Assembly (NCBI GenBank): GCA_016839055.1 | Contig: JAEKNX010000012.1 | Location: forward strand, 1-64,000 | Origin: Spirochaetales bacterium | GTDB taxonomy: Bacteria; Spirochaetota; Spirochaetia; UBA9216 | Direction: 5' to 3' | Length of the DNA stretch: 64,000 nt | In this document: positions 25,158 to 33,501 of the stretch, piece by piece | Layout: each line of letters starts with the position of its first letter | Position numbering within the stretch: position 1 is the stretch's first letter | Notes under the pieces: model-generated | What the model saw: only the letters and a program-made list of their open reading frames with translations | Database searches by the model: none | What the model was told of the DNA's origin: nothing | Translations under genes and position numbers: made by a program

Positions 25158-26087
25158 TCAGGCTAAAGCTTCTGCTGTTTTCTGATCTGTTATAAGTGTA
25201 TTTATGTATCCGCCCTTGATGGCACCGATAATTGCAGGAAGCTTGAGTATCGAGCCGGCAACACCAATTCGCGTAGGAATTTTCAGGAAATCATCGCGGC
25301 CCACGGCAATTATTTTTTCATCGAGTGAGGTCTTCACCGGCTCGCCGTTTTCACAGTAATAATGAGTGCAAATTTCACCGACAGGGAACTTTTGCTTCTT
25401 GTATACTATCTGCTCGTCACTAATTGATGAGATATCAGGCTCATAGCTTGCGTCTCCGATACCAACAACGGCGATGGTGCATGATTTGATGATATTATAA
25501 GTTTCAAGGAAAAAAGGTTCCTTCATTATGGCTTTTTTAACTGCCGGACTGTTAACAATAACGGGGGCAAATAGAAGGGCCGACTTAGCATTTGTTTGTT
25601 TGGCAAATCTGTGAACAATATCGTCTACATTTACATTTGAATGTTGATTATTGCGGCCGCCCATTAGCTGGGTTATTGTCAGGTCGTCAAATTGGATAGA
25701 AGGCATGCAGTCGACGAGGGCGGAAATGCTCCGACCCCTGGAAAAACCGATTATATCTCCATTTTTAATGATGGTGGCAAGATATTCAGCTGCAAGTCTA
25801 CCGATGGCGGTATAGATGTCATCATTTAATGAGGTGTTGGATACTCGAACGGTCTTGAGATTATACTTTTTTTCTATACTGTTTTCGAGATTGATATTTG
25901 TTTCATCCATGCCCTCGACATTGATTTTTACTATTCCGTCCTTAAGACATTTACTAAGTACGCGGTTTATCCGCTGACGGGAGAGATCCATGGTAATGGC
26001 AATCTGTTCCTGAGTGAGTCCGTGATTATAATAATAATTTGCAACTCTGATGTGATCGGTTCTCGACAGTTTCCTGTATTCCTTCAT
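25158..26087 (-). CDS. SorC/DeoR-type sugar-binding transcriptional regulator
   Basis: A regulator with an N-terminal helix-turn-helix (YYYNHGLTQEQIAITMDLSR then QRINRVLSKCLKDGIV) and a SorC sugar-phosphate-binding domain (IGRLAAEYLATIIKNGDIIG, QLMGGRNN, VVGIGDAS, AVGRDDFLKIPTRIGVA, GGYINTLITDQKTAEAL). This family binds phosphorylated sugars and controls catabolic operons next to it. It is transcribed away from the aldolase operon starting at 26302, sharing a 214-bp regulatory gap with an operator-like inverted repeat. AAGGTGA precedes the ATG. It is very likely the controller of that operon. The effector is probably the aldolase substrate or a relative (inference). Confidence 0.9.
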   Translation of the reverse strand: MKEYRKLSRTDHIRVANYYYNHGLTQEQIAITMDLSRQRINRVLSKCLKDGIVKINVEGMDETNINLENSIEKKYNLKTVRVSNTSLNDDIYTAIGRLAAEYLATIIKNGDIIGFSRGRSISALVDCMPSIQFDDLTITQLMGGRNNQHSNVNVDDIVHRFAKQTNAKSALLFAPVIVNSPAVKKAIMKEPFFLETYNIIKSCTIAVVGIGDASYEPDISSISDEQIVYKKQKFPVGEICTHYYCENGEPVKTSLDEKIIAVGRDDFLKIPTRIGVAGSILKLPAIIGAIKGGYINTLITDQKTAEALA

Positions 26088-26192: not shown

Positions 26193-26228
26193 TTGACATT
26201 TGCCGGATATGATATATCATCAAATGTC
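26193..26228 (+). promoter_or_regulatory. Promoter and operator of the aldolase operon
   Basis: TTGACA (26193-26198) and TATCAT (26215-26220), 16 nt apart, form a plausible sigma-70 promoter. It is flanked by an inverted repeat GACATTTG (26195-26202) / CAAATGTC (26221-26228). The arms overlap the -35 and the start-site region, as expected of a repressor site, and CATATGATAT/GCATATG just downstream may be part of it. The likely binder is the divergent SorC protein. Confidence 0.65.
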
Positions 26229-26301
26229 GACATATGATATGCAGTGTGAGCATATGTAACAAAAATGATTTTTAACATTATAAATACTTTCAGGAGCAAT
26301 A

Positions 26302-27102
26302 ATGAACAATACAACACATCGAATGAATCATATTTTTAAGCCGGATGGAAAGACTTTCATTCTGGCAATGGATCATGGGGCGAATTTTAACGTCTTGCCT
26401 GCACTGAAGAAGCAGGGAGAGATGATAAGAGAGCTCGCTGCAGCCGGAGCTGATGCCTTTCTTGCAACCGTAGGAATGGCCGAGAGGTTTGCAGATGCAT
26501 TTTTAGGTAAGGGCTTAATCCTGCGGATAGACGGCGGAGTCTCCTTTCTCGGAGATAGATCCAAACCGATGCAGATTGTCGCGACCGCCGAAGATGCACT
26601 GAGGCTTGGGGCTGACTCGATCATCACGATGAGCTTCCCCGGTTCGAAATTTGAGAGCGAGGTGCTTAGCAATCTGTCTAAATGCGTGATGGATGCTCAT
26701 AAATGGGGGCTTCCTGTTACGGCCGAGGCCTTGCCCAGAGGATTTGAACGGTTTGATGATGCAAGAACCCCTGAGAATATCACCTTTGCCTGCCGTCAGA
26801 GTGTAGAGCTTGGAGCCGATATTGTGAAAACAGTTTATACAGGTGATCAGGACAGTTTTAAAAATCTCGTTGAGAGCACCTATGCTCCGGTAGTAATTTT
26901 AGGCGGTTCACAGAAGGTAGAGGAGAGGATCCTTCTTCAGGAAATTAAGGACGCAATTGAAGTAGGCGGAGCCGGTGTTGCTATGGGAAGAAATATATGG
27001 GGACATGAGAGTCCCGTCAGATATGCTGCCGCGATAGCAAAACTCATTCATGAAGACTGCAGTGTTGATGCTGCACTCAAAGAAATGAATAAACTGCATT
27101 AA
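26302..27102 (+). CDS. Class I aldolase of the FbaB/LsrF (DeoC-like) family
   Basis: A Schiff-base aldolase with a TIM-barrel fold. It opens with the family motif FILAMDHGANF. It continues with ADAFLATVGMAERF, LRIDGGVSFLGD, LGADSIITMSFPG, GLPVTAEALPRGF and VKTVYTGDQDSF, where Lys of ADIVKT is the expected Schiff-base lysine, and ends with GGAGVAMGRNIWGHESP. Related enzymes act on fructose bisphosphate, on phosphorylated AI-2, or on the heptulosonate of the archaeal aromatic pathway. CAGGAG precedes the ATG. It is the first gene of a five-gene operon under the SorC regulator and probably cleaves a phosphorylated sugar or similar intermediate. Substrate not determined. Confidence 0.87.
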   Translation: MNNTTHRMNHIFKPDGKTFILAMDHGANFNVLPALKKQGEMIRELAAAGADAFLATVGMAERFADAFLGKGLILRIDGGVSFLGDRSKPMQIVATAEDALRLGADSIITMSFPGSKFESEVLSNLSKCVMDAHKWGLPVTAEALPRGFERFDDARTPENITFACRQSVELGADIVKTVYTGDQDSFKNLVESTYAPVVILGGSQKVEERILLQEIKDAIEVGGAGVAMGRNIWGHESPVRYAAAIAKLIHEDCSVDAALKEMNKLH

Positions 27103-27110
27103 AAGGAAAA

Positions 27111-28148
27111 ATGATGGAAAAATATAACGTAAGCGTGATTTCCGGGGTAAACGAAGTTGAAACCCTTGAGTTTGAGAAAAAGAGCCCTGTAGGCCGCCAG
27201 GTCCTTGTTAAGGTTGAATACTGTGCAATTTGCACCCTCGAGCAGAGAGTATTCTCCGGTGTGATGAAGAGATATCCATTCGCAGGCGGTCATGAAATTT
27301 CAGGTATTATCGAGTCAGCTGGTGATGATGTTACTTCGGTGAAACCCGGCGACAAGGTTGCTGTCCGGATGCTGAACTCCTGCGGCGAATGTTATTACTG
27401 CAAGAGCGGACATGAGAATCAATGTGTTGTCTCTTTTAAGGCCTCAGTACATGAGGGCCTTTTGGGGCCGGGCGGTTTTTCTGAATACATGCTGCTTGAT
27501 GCGATAAATGTCTATAAGATGGCTGAGGATGTTGACCTCGCTCATGCTGCTCTGGCCGAACCCCTGGCCTGCTGTGTTCACAGCATAAACAATGCCCAAA
27601 TCAATCTTGGAGATGATGTTGTCGTAGTGGGCGTAGGTATAATGGGAGCCTTCCATATTCAGCTCGCGAAACTTAAAGGCGCCCGGGTAATAGCCTGCGA
27701 GATTGATGAAGGCAGGCTTGAGGTTGCCAGGAAGATGGGAGCCGATATCCTTATCAATTCAGGTAAGGAAGATGCTGTTGCAAGGGTGAAGGAACTTACT
27801 GACGGCCGGGGAGCCGATGCGGTTTTCTGTACAGTAGCCTCTACCTCTTTAGCTTCCGACAGTATCGAGATGACAGGAAAGCTTGGCCGCGCAGTTATGT
27901 ACACGTCTTTTCATCCTGATAATCCTGTTGAGATTAGCGTTAATAAGATTCATTCAAGTGAGATGATAATAACAGGCGCGGTTAATCCTAAGATGTCTGA
28001 TTTTCTTATTGCATCGAGACTCATTTCAAATAAGACTATAGATCTCTCAGAATTGATTTCGGAGACGGTGTCTTTGGGGTCCATAAGCAAGGGCTTCAAG
28101 ACGGCATTGAAGCCCGATAGTTACAGAGTTCTTGTTACTGGAAAGTAG
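27111..28148 (+). CDS. Zinc-dependent alcohol dehydrogenase (MDR family)
   Basis: A medium-chain NAD(P)-dependent polyol/alcohol dehydrogenase. Catalytic zinc ligands are the Cys of EYCAICTLEQ and His-Glu of GGHEISG. Structural zinc ligands are the four Cys of CGECYYCKSGHENQC. The Rossmann fold lies at VVVVGVGIMGAFHIQLAKL with Glu in ACEIDEGRLE, which favours NAD. Length 345 aa is typical. It is 8 nt downstream of the aldolase gene; AAAGGA is followed by two tandem ATGs (27111, 27114), either of which may be used. It probably oxidises a hydroxyl on the substrate or product of the aldolase. Confidence 0.9.
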   Translation: MMEKYNVSVISGVNEVETLEFEKKSPVGRQVLVKVEYCAICTLEQRVFSGVMKRYPFAGGHEISGIIESAGDDVTSVKPGDKVAVRMLNSCGECYYCKSGHENQCVVSFKASVHEGLLGPGGFSEYMLLDAINVYKMAEDVDLAHAALAEPLACCVHSINNAQINLGDDVVVVGVGIMGAFHIQLAKLKGARVIACEIDEGRLEVARKMGADILINSGKEDAVARVKELTDGRGADAVFCTVASTSLASDSIEMTGKLGRAVMYTSFHPDNPVEISVNKIHSSEMIITGAVNPKMSDFLIASRLISNKTIDLSELISETVSLGSISKGFKTALKPDSYRVLVTGK

Positions 28149-28270
28149 CATTAGCATATTTAATGACTGATATCTAAAAAAGTTGATTTTCGGGAGGTAT
28201 TCCTAAAAATGTGTTCCGCTGGAAGATTTTTCTTCCATGCGAATGTCTGATTAACTTTAAGGAGAAGTTT

Positions 28271-29650
28271 ATGTCTAATTTACAAGAGAAAGTAAAAAGC
28301 GGAGGATCGATAGGTCTCGTACAATGCGTGACAATCATCGTCGGTGGGATGATCGGTAGTGCAATATTCTCACTATCGGGAATGACAATCTATTCAGCCG
28401 GACCCGCGGCATTGGTGTCATGGATAATTGCCGCGATTATTCTGTTGATGTACGGTCTTCAAATTGCTGAGCTGTCAACAATTTTTCCAAAATCCGGTGG
28501 AGTCTTCGTCTTTCCGTCAAAAGCTCTCGGCAGTACTGAGAAAAAAGGCAAGATCTGGGGATGGATATCATTCTGGGGATATATCAACGCAAACATTGCA
28601 GGTATCGGGTTTGCAGCGATCTATGTCTCGACATATCTCGGCGTAGGTTTTCCGATATTTTCAGGACTGCAGATTCCTATGGCAATTGCAGCAGTATTGT
28701 TCTGTTTTCTTCTGAATACCCTGAAGTTTACCGTAACCGGAAACGCAAGTACTGTAATGGTCATAGGCCTTGTTACCACGATGGTTATCTTTATCGGAGT
28801 CGGACTCTTCGGCGGCAGCTGGGATTCAACCCAGTTTACTCCCTTCCTTACTCAGGGAGCCATGGGATCAACCGGTTTCATGACGGCGATTCCTACCGCT
28901 ATGGTTGCTTATGGATCGATTGTTGCCATCGCATTCATGGTGTCTGAGGTAAAAAATCCCAACAAGAATGTTCCCAAATCTATTTTCATAGCGATGTCGA
29001 TCGTTGTCGTTCTATATCTTCTGATACTTGTAACTACTCTCGGCCTTGTTACAGCAGGCTTCCTCGATGCAAATCCTGGAATGAGGTATATTCCCCTTTA
29101 TGCCGCGGCATTTACAAAGCTCGGAGCATTTCCATGGATAGCCAAGCTGATTTCTGTTGCAGCGGTTCTTGCGCTTCTTACAACAATACTTGTACTAATA
29201 GCGCTTACTTCCCGTGCCATCGCGGCGGTTGCTGATGCGAAGATGATTCCTAAATCTCTCGGAAAGCTCAATTCCAAAACCGGAACACCGCTGAATGCAA
29301 CAATAGTTGTAGCCATTGCAAGTATAATAATTTCCTGTTTTCCGCAGCTGACCTCGCAGATTGTTAATCTCGGAGCTCTATTTGCCGCAATAACAATAAG
29401 CATTAATTGTATCTCTCTATTTGTAGCTAGAAAGAAGAATGTCTATGTTCCCGGCAACTTTCGTGCACCGGGTGGAAAGTTTTTACCCATTATTACAATT
29501 GCTGTAATCGTCATGGCCTATATCCCGGGAATAATAAACGGATCGGCATTCTGGTACTACGGATTAATCTGGTATGGTCTGGGTGCACTGTTACTTATCA
29601 TCTCTCTGAAAAAGAGTGCTAAAAGCGGCGATGACCTGACAGTTAGTTAA
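28271..29650 (+). CDS. APC-superfamily amino acid/amine permease
   Basis: A 12-helix secondary transporter of the APC superfamily. Helix 1 has the broken GGMIGSAIF motif, followed by SAGPAALVSWIIAAI and a PKSGGVFVFPSKALG loop. Later helices include the IAFMVSEVKNPNKNVPK stretch typical of amino acid permeases. The frame is open from 28211, but AAGGAG (28259-28264) lies 6 nt before ATG 28271, giving 459 aa. It sits between two dehydrogenases in the SorC operon and is the only transporter there. The imported compound is therefore more likely an amino acid, amine or amino-alcohol than a plain sugar (inference). Confidence 0.9.
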   Translation: MSNLQEKVKSGGSIGLVQCVTIIVGGMIGSAIFSLSGMTIYSAGPAALVSWIIAAIILLMYGLQIAELSTIFPKSGGVFVFPSKALGSTEKKGKIWGWISFWGYINANIAGIGFAAIYVSTYLGVGFPIFSGLQIPMAIAAVLFCFLLNTLKFTVTGNASTVMVIGLVTTMVIFIGVGLFGGSWDSTQFTPFLTQGAMGSTGFMTAIPTAMVAYGSIVAIAFMVSEVKNPNKNVPKSIFIAMSIVVVLYLLILVTTLGLVTAGFLDANPGMRYIPLYAAAFTKLGAFPWIAKLISVAAVLALLTTILVLIALTSRAIAAVADAKMIPKSLGKLNSKTGTPLNATIVVAIASIIISCFPQLTSQIVNLGALFAAITISINCISLFVARKKNVYVPGNFRAPGGKFLPIITIAVIVMAYIPGIINGSAFWYYGLIWYGLGALLLIISLKKSAKSGDDLTVS

Positions 29651-29660
29651 GGATGATATA

Positions 29661-30581
29661 ATGGAATATATTGATGAAGCTGATTATTCTATGAAAAATA
29701 CGATAGTTGCTTTCGGCTGTTTCGATGGTCTACATCAGGGTCACCGAATGGTTTTAAATTCTCTTATGGAGAACAAAGAGGGCTGTGATCACGCCGTTAT
29801 TCTGAGTCTGGATACAATTTGTTCGGAACTCAAGGGTGATATTAAAGTAATTTATACCGAGGAAGAGAAGGCCGGGCTTTTAAAAGGCGATGCGGCAGAT
29901 GCTATGGTCAGCCTGCCTCTCGACGCGGTTGTCCTCGCGATGGAAGCAGAAGACTTTGTAAAAACAATTCTCATCGGGAAATTCGATGCCAAGAAAATTG
30001 TCGCGGGAGAAAACCTGAAATTCGGCAAAGACAGGGCAGGCGATATTGCTCTACTCGAAGAGCTCTCCGGAAAATACGGATATGAACTAATAAGATGTGC
30101 GACAGTAGAGCATGAAGGCCGGGAGATTACATCGGATTGGATCAAGATTGAGCTTGAAGAAGGTGATCTGAAGAAGGCCAATGAGCTGCTGGGACATCCA
30201 TTTACGATATTCGGTGAGGTTGTTCATGGAAAGGCTCTGGGGCGTACCGTTGGTATGCCTACCGCGAACCTAAAGGTGCCGGATTCAAAAATAATGCCGA
30301 AATTCGGTGTTTATGGATCCCTTTCTGAAATTGAGTCAAACACTGTTAAGGGGTTGACGAATATAGGAAGACGCCCGTCGGTCGATGATCATAGTTATGT
30401 AACTATAGAGACCTTTCTTATTGATTTCGCGAGTGATATCTATGGTGAACAAATTGCCCTGGAATTATATGCCTACATTCGGGGAGTCGTAAAATTCCCT
30501 AATCTTGAGGCAGTAAAAAAGCAGGTGGACAAGGATCTTCAGGTAATTAGAAGTGAGCTTGACCGAGTATTTATAGCATAA
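29661..30581 (+). CDS. Divergent RibF-like riboflavin kinase/FAD synthetase
   Basis: A two-domain RibF homologue. The N-terminal nucleotidyltransferase domain keeps GCFDGLHQGH (about residues 19-28). The FAD-synthetase signature normally reading like ISSTRIR is here ITSDWIK, losing the arginine. The C-terminal flavokinase domain keeps GRTVGMPTANL, LTNIGRRPSV and the catalytic Glu in ETFLIDF, but GVYA has become GVYGS. The adenylyl-transfer half may thus be weak or altered. Its place inside a permease/aldolase/dehydrogenase operon and not a riboflavin locus suggests a second copy with a special task, either local FMN supply or kinase activity on another ribityl-like compound (inference). Confidence 0.8.
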   Translation: MEYIDEADYSMKNTIVAFGCFDGLHQGHRMVLNSLMENKEGCDHAVILSLDTICSELKGDIKVIYTEEEKAGLLKGDAADAMVSLPLDAVVLAMEAEDFVKTILIGKFDAKKIVAGENLKFGKDRAGDIALLEELSGKYGYELIRCATVEHEGREITSDWIKIELEEGDLKKANELLGHPFTIFGEVVHGKALGRTVGMPTANLKVPDSKIMPKFGVYGSLSEIESNTVKGLTNIGRRPSVDDHSYVTIETFLIDFASDIYGEQIALELYAYIRGVVKFPNLEAVKKQVDKDLQVIRSELDRVFIA

Positions 30582-30654
30582 TTTCTGACAACAGAATCCG
30601 TCATGTCCGAAATGGCATGGCGGTGATATTCTAACATTACGAAGAGGCGTCCTG

Positions 30655-31866
30655 ATGCAAAGCAATTACAGATGTTTTGAGCTTACAAAATTTATAGTCG
30701 GCAGAGGTTCGATAGAATATTTAAAACAAATTAAGGCCTCCAGAGCTGCAGTAATCCATGGCGGAAGGAGTCTGCCGGAAAGTCTTAAGACAAGGATAAT
30801 CGAAATACTATCAGAGTCCGGGACGGAATGCCGTTTTATTGCAAAAATACTGAATGAACCCTTCTTCGAAGATATATATGAGGTTCTCGATGTCATGGAA
30901 GAATATAAACCTGATTTGCTCATCGCCATTGGCGGCGGAGCTGTCATGGATACCGCCAAAGGTATTCATCTTTTCTATGAGCACCCCGAGCTGGCCCTGG
31001 AAGATGCGCTGAAGCCGTACCAGCTTCCCGCATTGGGTGCTACAGCCAAGATGGTCGCAATTCCCACTACAAGCGGGACGGGGTCTGAGACAACCTCCGC
31101 TGCGGTCTTTACCGAGAGAAAGACAAACAGGAAGCATCTGATGCTTGCCGATGAGCTGATTCCCCACTATGCGATACTCGATGCCGATCTGACCGACTCA
31201 CTGCCTTCGAAAATTGTCGCCCATACCGGTATGGACGCACTCACCCACGCGATGGAAGCCTCCGTTTCGGTAGCCGCCTCTGCAATGGTAACTACGATGG
31301 CAATATCCTCCGCCCTCGATATCTTCGAAAATCTTGAGGCCTCCGCGGATGAGAGCTCTTCGGGGGATCTGAAGAAGACTGCCCGGGAAGCCTGCCATGT
31401 CGCGGCAAGCCTGGCAGGGGTAAGCATTACCAATTCCTGTGCGGGGCTTGCGCACGGTTTCGATCAACCCGGCCCCTGGTTTGGACTGCCTCACGGTCTT
31501 GTATGCGGACTGCTGCTGCCTTATACGACGGCCTTTACCGGAGTCCATCCGTCATATGTGAAACTCGCTAAGCGTCTCGGATATAAGAGCAGCAGCGATA
31601 AAGAGCTGTGCCAGATGCTGGTTGACCACATAATCGCCTTTAATGAGACCGTGGGGATCCCGCGAAGTTTTTCAGAAGCAGGCATAGATGAGGGCGAGTA
31701 TTTAATGAAAATAAATGATTTTGCGGCATTGGCCGTTGAAGCAATAGCCACGAAGCTCTCTCCGAGGGTCCCGACTCTTGATGAGGCAAGGGATTTATAC
31801 AAGCAGGTTTTCTACGGAGAAAACCCAATTGTCTCAGGTCCGCTTATTATGGAAATATTATTGTAA
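30655..31866 (+). CDS. Iron-containing (type III) alcohol dehydrogenase
   Basis: An NAD(P)H-dependent group III alcohol dehydrogenase/reductase. The nucleotide-binding part has AIGGGAVMDTAKG and IPTTSGTGSETTSAAVFTE. Metal ligands lie in AILDADLT (Asp region), GMDALTHAMEA (His), SCAGLAHGFDQPG and WFGLPHGLVCG (His). Length 403 aa is normal. It ends the SorC operon, and a terminator lies 138 nt downstream. Together with the Zn-dehydrogenase it could make a redox-balanced pair, one oxidising a substrate and the other reducing an aldehyde released by the aldolase (inference). Confidence 0.92.
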   Translation: MQSNYRCFELTKFIVGRGSIEYLKQIKASRAAVIHGGRSLPESLKTRIIEILSESGTECRFIAKILNEPFFEDIYEVLDVMEEYKPDLLIAIGGGAVMDTAKGIHLFYEHPELALEDALKPYQLPALGATAKMVAIPTTSGTGSETTSAAVFTERKTNRKHLMLADELIPHYAILDADLTDSLPSKIVAHTGMDALTHAMEASVSVAASAMVTTMAISSALDIFENLEASADESSSGDLKKTAREACHVAASLAGVSITNSCAGLAHGFDQPGPWFGLPHGLVCGLLLPYTTAFTGVHPSYVKLAKRLGYKSSSDKELCQMLVDHIIAFNETVGIPRSFSEAGIDEGEYLMKINDFAALAVEAIATKLSPRVPTLDEARDLYKQVFYGENPIVSGPLIMEILL

Positions 31867-32003
31867 AACAGCAGATAAGGTAATTTTTAAAGAGATGCGC
31901 CCTTTGTGGCTTTAATCAATTAAATCTTAAGGCTTCAGGACTACAAGGAAAAACTGAATATAGCAGCAGGCAGTATCAAAGCCTGATTAATTAACTTACA
32001 CAG

Positions 32004-32030
32004 GACTGCTCAATCGGGCAGTCTTTTTTT
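32004..32030 (+). terminator. Terminator after the SorC-regulated operon
   Basis: An 8-bp stem GACTGCTC/GGGCAGTC (one T-G pair) with loop AATC, followed by seven Ts. It lies 138 nt beyond the last gene of the operon. No gene is visible in the rest of 31867-32189. Confidence 0.9.
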
Positions 32031-32675: not shown

Positions 32676-32732
32676 TTGACATATTCTCGAGTAATGACTA
32701 ACATCCAGCCATCATTTTAAGTAATGGACAAT

Positions 32733-32881
32733 AGATTTTCGGGGTAAGGTGCGTAGAGTGGAACATTCTGTTTTACTCGGCAATTCCTGACTGGCGGTAC
32801 AGCCCGCTACTCCCTTCGATTCCGAAGGGACTGAACCGGTTAGATTCCGGTGCCAACGGTATAGTCCGGACGGGAGAAAAT
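32733..32881 (+). ncRNA. FMN riboswitch (RFN element)
   Basis: The conserved RFN blocks appear in order: TTTTCGGGGTAAGG (32735-32749), GGCGGTA (32783-32789) with AGCCCGCTA, a P4 hairpin CCCTTCG/CGAAGGG, GATTCCGGTGCC, ACGGTATAGTCCGGA and GGGAGAAAA closing the P1 stem. The P2 region is enlarged by roughly 30 nt compared with the usual short loop and contains GAGT/ACTC. It controls ribH (33004). Binding FMN should lower RibH production. Confidence 0.93.
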
Positions 32882-32979
32882 CAGAACAGATCCTTTTTTG
32901 GATCGTGTTTGCCAATCAAATTCATTTTTGAGGCGCATAATTTTAGTTTCGAAATTTTGTGCCAGTTTATACCCGAAAG

Positions 32980-32996
32980 CTCCTTGTCCAAAGGAG
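32980..32996 (+). promoter_or_regulatory. Shine-Dalgarno-sequestering hairpin of the FMN riboswitch
   Basis: CTCCTT (32980-32985) is perfectly complementary to AAGGAG (32991-32996), the ribosome binding site of ribH, with loop GTCCA. A second stem with one mismatch (32932-32944 with 32952-32963) lies between the aptamer and this hairpin. No T-tract follows any hairpin, so translational rather than transcriptional control is likely. Confidence 0.7.
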
Positions 32997-33003
32997 AAAC
33001 AAA

Positions 33004-33501
33004 ATGACAGAAATATCAGTAAAACTCAACGCGGAAGGTCGGAATTTTGCCCTCGTTATCGGCAGATTTTATTCGCAGATAACCGAGCAACTTGAGAAGG
33101 GGGCCTGTGAAGCATTGCTCCACCACGGTACGGATGAACAGGATATTGTCACCGTCAGGGTGCCGGGCGCATTCGAGATCCCGCTTGCGGCTAAAAAGCT
33201 TGCCGAGTCCGGACTTTTTGATGCGGTAATCTGCCTCGGTGCGGTTATCCGGGGCGGCATGGCACCCTTCGAGTTCGTTGCATCCGAGACTGCGAAGGGC
33301 ATTGCCAGGGTCTCGCTGGACACCGGAATACCTGTAATCTTCGGAGTGCTTATATCTGATAGTATCGAACAGGCCCTCGAGAGGGCAGGCACCAAGGCTG
33401 GGAACCATGGGTTCAACGCGGCGGTATCGGCGATAGAGATGGTGAATCTGTTGAAGGAGATAGACTGTCTTGAATCAACGGACTCTCATTGGGCCGAGTA
33501 G
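33004..33501 (+). CDS. ribH: 6,7-dimethyl-8-ribityllumazine synthase
   Basis: The penultimate enzyme of riboflavin synthesis. It joins 5-amino-6-ribitylaminouracil and dihydroxybutanone phosphate in an icosahedral or pentameric shell. It shows [81 protein letters not shown]. The usual RGxTxHF(D/E)YV segment reads [10 protein letters not shown], so the conserved active-site His is Pro (codon CCC). ATG 33004 has AAGGAG 7 nt upstream; the longer frame from GTG 32959 starts inside a leader hairpin. It is alone behind the FMN riboswitch, without ribA/B/D/E. Confidence 0.93.

Follow-up and report, generated by a model that had tools for sequence, protein, structure and literature searches.

The window, i.e. 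the whole 64,000-nucleotide stretch that was analysed, carries a five-gene operon on the forward strand, divergent from the gene of a SorC-type regulator. The features are as follows; names with fin refer to a flavin-induced gene neighbourhood described below.

25158-26087, minus strand: SorC/DeoR-family regulator with HTH and Sugar-bind domains (Pfam PF04198, 207 bits), divergent from the operon
26193-26220, plus strand: sigma70-like promoter TTGACA-16-TATCAT (consensus scan, 11 of 12 positions)
26227-26260, unstranded: SorC operator-like site TCGACATATGATATGCAGTGTGAGCATATGTAAC, immediately 3' of the -10 element and resembling sites in fin operons
26302-27102, plus strand: class I aldolase of the DhnA/FbaB type (homologue of finC), with 63-82% identity to the fin aldolases of Bacillota
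27111-28148, plus strand: Zn-dependent MDR dehydrogenase (Zn-ADH), finD-type, threonine/polyol-phosphate-dehydrogenase-like
about 28271-29650, plus strand: APC-family permease (PF13520, 146 bits)
29661-30581, plus strand: RibF-like protein with a flavokinase domain at residues 177-298 (PF01687, 124 bits)
30655-31866, plus strand: iron-type (class III) alcohol dehydrogenase, Fe-ADH (PF00465/PF25137)
32002-32025, plus strand: intrinsic terminator 3' of the operon, a stem of 10 base pairs with a run of T after it

The five genes and the divergent regulator are located where a preliminary description had placed them, and the promoter, operator and terminator are confirmed. It had called the genes tightly spaced, which is wrong only before the permease, as the gaps from the aldolase through the Fe-ADH are 8, about 122, 10 and 73 bases. 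The ribH gene and FMN riboswitch that lie downstream (32731-33501) were considered as members of the operon and rejected, because the terminator lies in between and a scan of seven Bacillota fin loci showed no FMN riboswitch.

The regulator probably represses the operon, and about 18 Bacillota loci have a SorC homologue within or adjoining their copy of this operon. The operator half-site GAGCAWATGTAAC is present at 26248-26260 with zero mismatches. Among 99 fetched loci, the partner half-site GTTACAWATGTAA occurs only a short distance 5' of fin genes and ahead of a single further operon in the same genome. The consensus across fin operons is GTTACAwATGTAA..TGAGCAwATGTAAC, and operator-like sites lie 5' of the aldolase gene in L006, L008-L010, L012, L015-L017 and L029 (our locus numbers) and 5' of the aldehyde dehydrogenase (ALDH) gene in L023. 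Judged from these sequence matches, the window operator is more than a chance match. A second copy in the window's genome precedes a 2-oxoacid/acetoin-dehydrogenase and Etf operon; this copy is unaccounted for by a riboflavin model and counts against it.

The same gene set is present in about 20 Bacillota loci with the order conserved, RibF included, so the arrangement is not unique to this strain. One of these loci (L018) belongs to Muricomes intestini, named as fin-positive in a February 2026 preprint (Quiles-Perez et al., bioRxiv 2026, PMC12934955), which uses fin for the flavin-induced gene neighbourhood found in Clostridium scindens, Faecalicatena fissicatena and M. intestini. According to this preprint, C. 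scindens is a riboflavin-degrading anaerobe in which riboflavin induces a RibF homologue, an aldolase, an alcohol dehydrogenase, an ALDH and Grd-like genes, and which forms lumichrome, while F. fissicatena, without Grd-like genes, produces hydroxyethylflavin; no fin knock-out was found in its accessible part. The neighbourhood is already known from this one preprint, on other bacteria, which also provides the link to riboflavin. The earlier statement that no named pathway has this gene set does not hold, and the reading as amine or amino-acid catabolism, prompted by the permease type, was dropped, as the genes are those of fin.

The published fin shares with the window a RibF homologue, a class I aldolase and an alcohol dehydrogenase. 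The Muricomes locus also shares the SorC regulator and the permease, and its aldolase is 73% identical to that of the window with the invariant active-site signature Glu142/Leu144/Phe148 in common. Unlike the published fin, the window belongs to a different phylum (probably a spirochaete), its SorC gene is divergent and its operon lacks finG and finHI. Neither the operon nor the sequence close by on either side has a finG aldehyde dehydrogenase; the Fe-ADH is present instead. The preprint used finG for calling genomes fin-positive (PMC12934955), so without an ALDH the window falls outside the full definition and represents a shorter type of fin homologue. The F. fissicatena type, as described there, likewise has no Grd-like genes, and an aldehyde-alcohol dehydrogenase gene lies at its flank; the window operon ends in an AdhE-like Fe-ADH. 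The spirochaete probably acquired the operon from gut-type Clostridia (Bacillota) by horizontal transfer.

The match to a locus of fin-positive M. intestini makes riboflavin the most likely substrate, rather than the amine or polyol-like compound proposed earlier; the reading as a catabolic operon is itself supported. Another ribityl- or polyol-like substrate, used with the same kinase-dehydrogenase-aldolase logic by a RibF-like kinase of changed specificity, is unlikely. The permease is of the APC type, usually for amino acids or amines, and more distant aldolase/Zn-ADH operons with BMP-type or other transporters show that this enzyme pair serves other substrates. In these operons (L030-L035; Chloroflexota, Thermoanaerobacter and a Clostridia MAG) the aldolase and dehydrogenase families stand side by side, two also having an Fe-ADH and AOR, but an FGGY sugar kinase takes the place of RibF and no SorC homologue was found. 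However, the homologous neighbourhood is induced by riboflavin itself in a riboflavin degrader (PMC12934955), so riboflavin is most simply the compound that RibF phosphorylates. The fin proteins also have the flavokinase residues that are conserved in housekeeping RibF. The FGGY replacement strengthens the earlier proposal of RibF as a kinase feeding the aldolase.

The RibF-like protein has ITSDWIK at the position of the housekeeping motif [IVSL]SS[TS]x[IVL][RK] of FMN adenylyltransferase/FAD synthetase. This change, already described, is family-wide: the motif is present in 0 of 20 fin RibFs vs 18 of 18 housekeeping RibFs. The HxGH motif is retained, and the FG.....G stretch of the nucleotidyltransferase domain is missing in most fin RibFs and kept in the window's. 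The flavokinase motifs are preserved, as had been noted, with G194, P200-T201-A202-N203, E250 and R274 invariant in fin RibFs. In the tree the window protein clusters with the fin-locus RibFs, the Muricomes one among them, and apart from housekeeping RibFs (branch values 69/84 for the fin proteins as one side of a branch and 93/90 for the housekeeping ones), the separate clade that the preliminary description had asked about. The AF2 model (pLDDT 85.5) has FAD synthetases as top PDB matches. The protein resembles bifunctional RibF in its two-domain fold, its flavokinase residues and a TIGR00083 score above the cut-off; it differs by the absent adenylyltransferase motif, its separate grouping and its place in a catabolic operon. 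By motif and tree, fin RibF is a separate, kinase-only type with a predicted loss of the FAD-synthetase site.

This loss argues against flavin overflow, in which the RibF-like protein runs in reverse as an FAD(H2) pyrophosphorylase yielding FMN and ATP, and other enzymes dispose of the reduced flavin. The preprint put this forward for FinB on the ground that other FAD synthetases can work in reverse (PMC12934955). The adenylyltransferase motif is expected to be necessary in both directions, yet is absent in 20 of 20 fin RibFs with an intact flavokinase site, and most also lack the FG.....G stretch, though the window's has it; we consider this reading very unlikely.

According to family searches, on which the statements about the whole genome are based, the operon RibF is the sole PF01687 match in the window's genome but not its only RibF, since contig C9 carries another, a housekeeping RibF that keeps VSSTRIR and lacks PTxN and other flavokinase residues. 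Least likely of all is that the operon RibF merely provides cellular FMN and the remaining genes serve an amine or polyol pathway that has nothing to do with it. The degraded flavokinase half of the C9 protein and the single PF01687 match would speak for this. Against it, the association holds in all 18 Bacillota fin genomes tested, each with a second, housekeeping RibF, and 57 of 59 relatives survive without any PF01687 match. The stand-alone flavokinases of two related genomes (G002, G039) have surroundings that are not fin-like.

Across 21 fin aldolases the Schiff-base Lys176, G201-G202 and the phosphate motif G229-R230-N231 are invariant. The catalytic tyrosine of archaeal-type FBP aldolase, Tyr146 in Thermoproteus tenax, is replaced by Leu144 in all of them, so by its active site the enzyme is not an FBP aldolase and its reaction could differ. 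The zinc-ligand cysteine of the Zn-ADH is conserved across fin, and the window enzyme clusters with those of Alkaliphilus L006 and L010 (99/98); it may act as an FMN 4'-dehydrogenase. The nearest matches of the Fe-ADH are lactaldehyde reductase and the ADH half of AdhE; the enzyme has an unusual active-site loop common to fin loci, and would reduce 10-formylmethylflavin to hydroxyethylflavin. The permease, with homologues in 19 loci (window counted), may be a riboflavin importer or an exporter of flavin products.

Sister loci carry in addition a betaine-aldehyde-type ALDH (or AOR) and a sarcosine-reductase-like selenoprotein pair. The ALDH most resembles betaine-aldehyde dehydrogenase; the Grd pair, which has a selenocysteine UGA, most resembles sarcosine GrdF/GrdG. 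These are enzyme types for N-CH2-CHO and N-CH2-COOH substrates. An aldehyde oxidiser is present in 10 of 10 loci with the Grd-like pair vs 0 of 10 without (Fisher p = 1e-5, which overstates independence because the modules were hand-scored and the loci are related). Among the fin loci the Grd pair is not significantly associated with loss of the Fe-ADH (p = 0.37), so Fe-ADH and ALDH/Grd do not strictly replace each other, and three of 20 loci (L012, L022, L026) have no Fe-ADH, ALDH or AOR nearby. Grd-like genes on contig C10 of the window's genome were not assigned to the pathway, because they lie in a hydantoinase-type cluster with no operator match there; a contribution to lumichrome formation is conceivable.

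We consider it probable (roughly 0.7) that this is a fin-type operon for anaerobic degradation of the riboflavin side chain, acquired from Bacillota and working as follows. Riboflavin would be taken up, perhaps by the APC permease, and phosphorylated at the 5'-OH by the RibF-like kinase, which would stop at FMN. The Zn-dehydrogenase would oxidise the 4'-OH to the ketose-1-phosphate-like 4'-keto-FMN, and the class I aldolase would perform a retro-aldol cleavage at C2'-C3', giving 10-formylmethylflavin and dihydroxyacetone phosphate, the latter entering glycolysis. The Fe-ADH would reduce 10-formylmethylflavin to 10-(2'-hydroxyethyl)flavin and re-oxidise the NADH of the dehydrogenase step. SorC would repress the operon until flavin or a phosphorylated intermediate appears. 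The 4' position and the cleavage site are suggested by the chemistry and by the two side-chain carbons that the known products retain. In the sister variant, ALDH or AOR would oxidise the aldehyde, giving 10-carboxymethylflavin. This N-substituted glycine would then be cleaved by the selenoprotein pair to lumichrome and acetyl phosphate; lumichrome matches the C. scindens product given in the preprint. On balance, we favour one branched anaerobic pathway for both classical products: a FAD-synthetase-dead RibF, the dehydrogenase and the aldolase would lead through FMN to 10-formylmethylflavin, followed by reduction, as in the spirochaete, or by oxidation and reductive cleavage with energy conserved as acetyl phosphate.

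The aerobic RcaE pathway (Microbacterium maritypicum, Devosia riboflavina) also removes the ribityl chain, and its end product lumichrome is the one proposed for the Grd-bearing variant, but removal by RcaE is oxygen-dependent and releases ribose. To our knowledge, it has no phosphorylated intermediate. According to PMC12934955, the sole worked-out riboflavin breakdown pathway requires oxygen, and C. scindens shows no similarity to RcaE.

New here are a fin-type operon from a further phylum, the predicted loss of the FAD-synthetase site in fin RibFs, the SorC operator common to fin operons and a stepwise mechanism covering both hydroxyethylflavin and lumichrome. The preprint has no stepwise mechanism and takes FinB as bifunctional (PMC12934955). 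The proposed pathway orders the induced genes into a scheme that names its intermediates and can be tested. It would explain lumichrome in some strains and hydroxyethylflavin in others, speaks against FinB being an FADH2 pyrophosphorylase, and widens the trait's range to a second phylum through horizontal transfer. Human urine and animal guts are reported to contain hydroxyethylflavin and formylmethylflavin (PMC12934955), and the route would explain the side-chain breakdown products found for decades in gut samples. These products matter to the host, because MR1 is bound by riboflavin catabolites, formylmethylflavin and lumichrome among them, which reduce its surface level (PMC12650265).

The preliminary description of the operon at 26193-31866 was correct in coordinates and annotation: a single promoter is followed by five forward-strand genes (aldolase, Zn-ADH, APC permease, RibF-like protein and Fe-ADH) and a terminator, and a SorC-type regulator gene is divergent from them. 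A spirochaete is the most likely host, given a short alanyl-tRNA synthetase of the PRK01584 type, a form associated with spirochaetes.

The operon belongs to fin, a neighbourhood known from one preprint of February 2026, and extends it to a new phylum. Clostridium scindens is reported there to convert riboflavin to lumichrome anaerobically, and one neighbourhood, fin, is induced by riboflavin (PMC12934955). The genes listed there include finB (RibF homologue), finC (class I aldolase), finD (alcohol dehydrogenase), finG (aldehyde dehydrogenase) and finHI (two glycine/betaine/sarcosine-reductase-like genes). Faecalicatena fissicatena is given without finHI, with a flanking aldehyde-alcohol dehydrogenase and hydroxyethylflavin as the reported product, and the long fin type is listed for Muricomes intestini (PMC12934955), the species of our locus L018, one of the Bacillota loci below.

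Scanning bacterial genomes with the aldolase gave 40 loci. Aldolase, Zn-ADH and RibF-like genes occur together in about 20 of these, usually with APC permease and SorC as well, and Bacillota throughout (by record titles Lachnospiraceae, Alkaliphilus, Lutispora, Christensenellaceae, Peptococcaceae and others). The operon is a conserved unit, and a rare one: a fin-type aldolase (E < 1e-90) is present in 2 of 391 genomes in the class of Muricomes, Muricomes itself being one, and no further genome among 296 of the window's own phylum had an aldolase more than 48% identical. In the Zn-ADH tree the window protein groups with Alkaliphilus and locus L010 (99/98), within Bacillota, and the simplest reading is gain from Bacillota by horizontal transfer. 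Gene content and conservation are direct observations, as are the motif loss and the operator described below.

We aligned 20 RibF-like proteins of fin operons with 18 housekeeping RibFs, of which 17 come from those same Bacillota genomes and one from the window genome:

G000:C9:119169-119624 (L004), housekeeping RibF of the window genome, behind rbfA-truB

The adenylyltransferase motif is kept in all 18 housekeeping proteins and in none of the 20 fin RibFs, in which P200-T201-N203, E250 and R274 are among the invariant flavokinase-domain residues. The two groups are apart on the tree, the fin side alone being moderately supported (69/84). A search of 18 fin genomes for FAD_syn gave exactly two matches in every one. 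The AlphaFold model of the window protein keeps the two-domain FAD-synthetase fold, so the first domain is degenerate, not deleted. Judged by its motifs, fin RibF is kinase-only; making FMN without reaching FAD would fit FMN as a pathway intermediate. The C9 protein keeps the FAD-synthetase motif, but its C-terminal part is shortened and lacks the flavokinase PTxN motif; fin RibF may therefore double as the cell's FMN source, which would be a side effect as regards the conserved unit. PF01687 had no match in 57 of 59 relatives. Two related genomes encode stand-alone flavokinase-domain proteins of 173 and 182 aa (L087 366-887 and L086 8895-9443, both reverse strand), with fin-like RPSVDD signatures in surroundings that are not fin.

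In the distant loci L030-L035 the same aldolase/Zn-ADH pair is found with an FGGY sugar kinase in place of RibF, and L034/L035 additionally have a BMP-type ABC transporter. These loci probably encode a catabolic pathway sharing the fin logic, with the kinase slot filled by an enzyme suited to the substrate. Some of them also contain AOR and Fe-ADH.

The proposed sequence is kinase first, then dehydrogenase, then aldolase. FMN is a derivative of ribitol 5-phosphate. Oxidation of its 4'-OH, neighbouring the phosphate-bearing carbon, would give a ketose-1-phosphate-like chain, and retro-aldol cleavage of C2'-C3' would release dihydroxyacetone phosphate and 10-formylmethylflavin. Both positions are proposed on chemical grounds; the two-carbon stub seen in the known products agrees with a 4'-ketone, whereas a 2'-ketone should leave a different stub. 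Like the FBP aldolase family, the fin aldolases have the Schiff-base lysine and the phosphate-binding motifs. They differ in that the catalytic Tyr is an invariant Leu and a Trp is Glu, substitutions compatible with a substrate other than FBP.

The aldehyde may have two fates. Scoring 20 loci for modules from gene maps, we found a Grd-like pair in ten, always accompanied by an enzyme that oxidises aldehydes (ALDH in nine loci, AOR in one, from Alkaliphilus), and neither in the other ten (Fisher p = 1e-5, ignoring kinship of the loci). The closest relatives are betaine-aldehyde dehydrogenase for the ALDH and sarcosine reductase GrdF/GrdG for the pair; the GrdF-like gene contains a UGA codon in frame, inside a UGTC motif, and a SECIS element. 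Betaine-aldehyde dehydrogenase acts on N-CH2-CHO and sarcosine reductase on N-CH2-COOH, exactly the groups carried by formylmethylflavin and by carboxymethylflavin. If the C-N bond of the latter were cleaved reductively, the products would be lumichrome and acetyl phosphate. Seven of the ten loci without the pair, including the window, have Fe-ADH, which, where it occurs alone, would turn the aldehyde into hydroxyethylflavin, offsetting the NADH from the first oxidation. The branches are not exclusive, since four loci (L006, L021, L027, L029) have both Fe-ADH and the ALDH-or-AOR/Grd set. In fin loci the Fe-ADHs have an unusual loop in common; it carries Asp at the position expected to hold the catalytic His of lactaldehyde reductase.

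In one Clostridiaceae MAG a MATE efflux gene adjoins the fin operon (L022 823-2271) and could export a flavin product. Elsewhere in the window genome, G000:C10:130001-149999 (L092) holds hydantoinase/oxoprolinase-like subunits, carbamoyltransferase, GrdA-like, thioredoxin, AOR and xanthine-dehydrogenase-like genes, with a sarcosine-reductase-like GrdF (in-frame UGA) and GrdG. Read by eye, the cluster resembles a pathway for hydantoin or creatinine with final reductive cleavage of an N-substituted glycine.

A predicted operator of two half-sites (GTTACAwATGTAA..TGAGCAwATGTAAC or a similar sequence) lies 5' of the fin operons in the window and most Bacillota loci, and 5' of the ALDH-Grd block in L023. 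In the window it is downstream of the -10 box, which fits repression. A second perfect copy was found:

G000:C3:116993-117025 (L096 6994-7026), predicted fin operator, about 91 kb from the window site

It precedes an operon for a TPP-dependent 2-oxoacid/acetoin-dehydrogenase complex, enoyl-CoA hydratase, acyl-CoA dehydrogenase and EtfBA. The window genome has six SorC-type regulators, none encoded near this C3 copy.

DHBP synthase was not found in the window genome (97% complete), which makes riboflavin auxotrophy of the host probable; C. scindens is likewise an auxotroph. Just 3' of the operon lies:

window 32731-33501, FMN riboswitch and orphan ribH (lumazine synthase)

The riboswitch 5' of ribH is the only one in the genome, and no clear ribH was found in the same-genus genomes searched. 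An orphan ribH here adjoins a putative riboflavin-degradation operon, in a genome where DHBP synthase was not found.

The core reaction scheme was derived from the gene set, independently of the preprint, which considers overflow or damage and possible FADH2 pyrophosphorolysis and gives no reaction sequence (PMC12934955). For the window operon we infer the substrate, all reactions, transport and effector. The case is strongest in four points: the adenylyltransferase site is dead in fin RibF, the kinase is swapped in the distant operons, ALDH is linked with Grd, and fin loci have an operator in common. Combined, these points provide a mechanism that is specific and testable.
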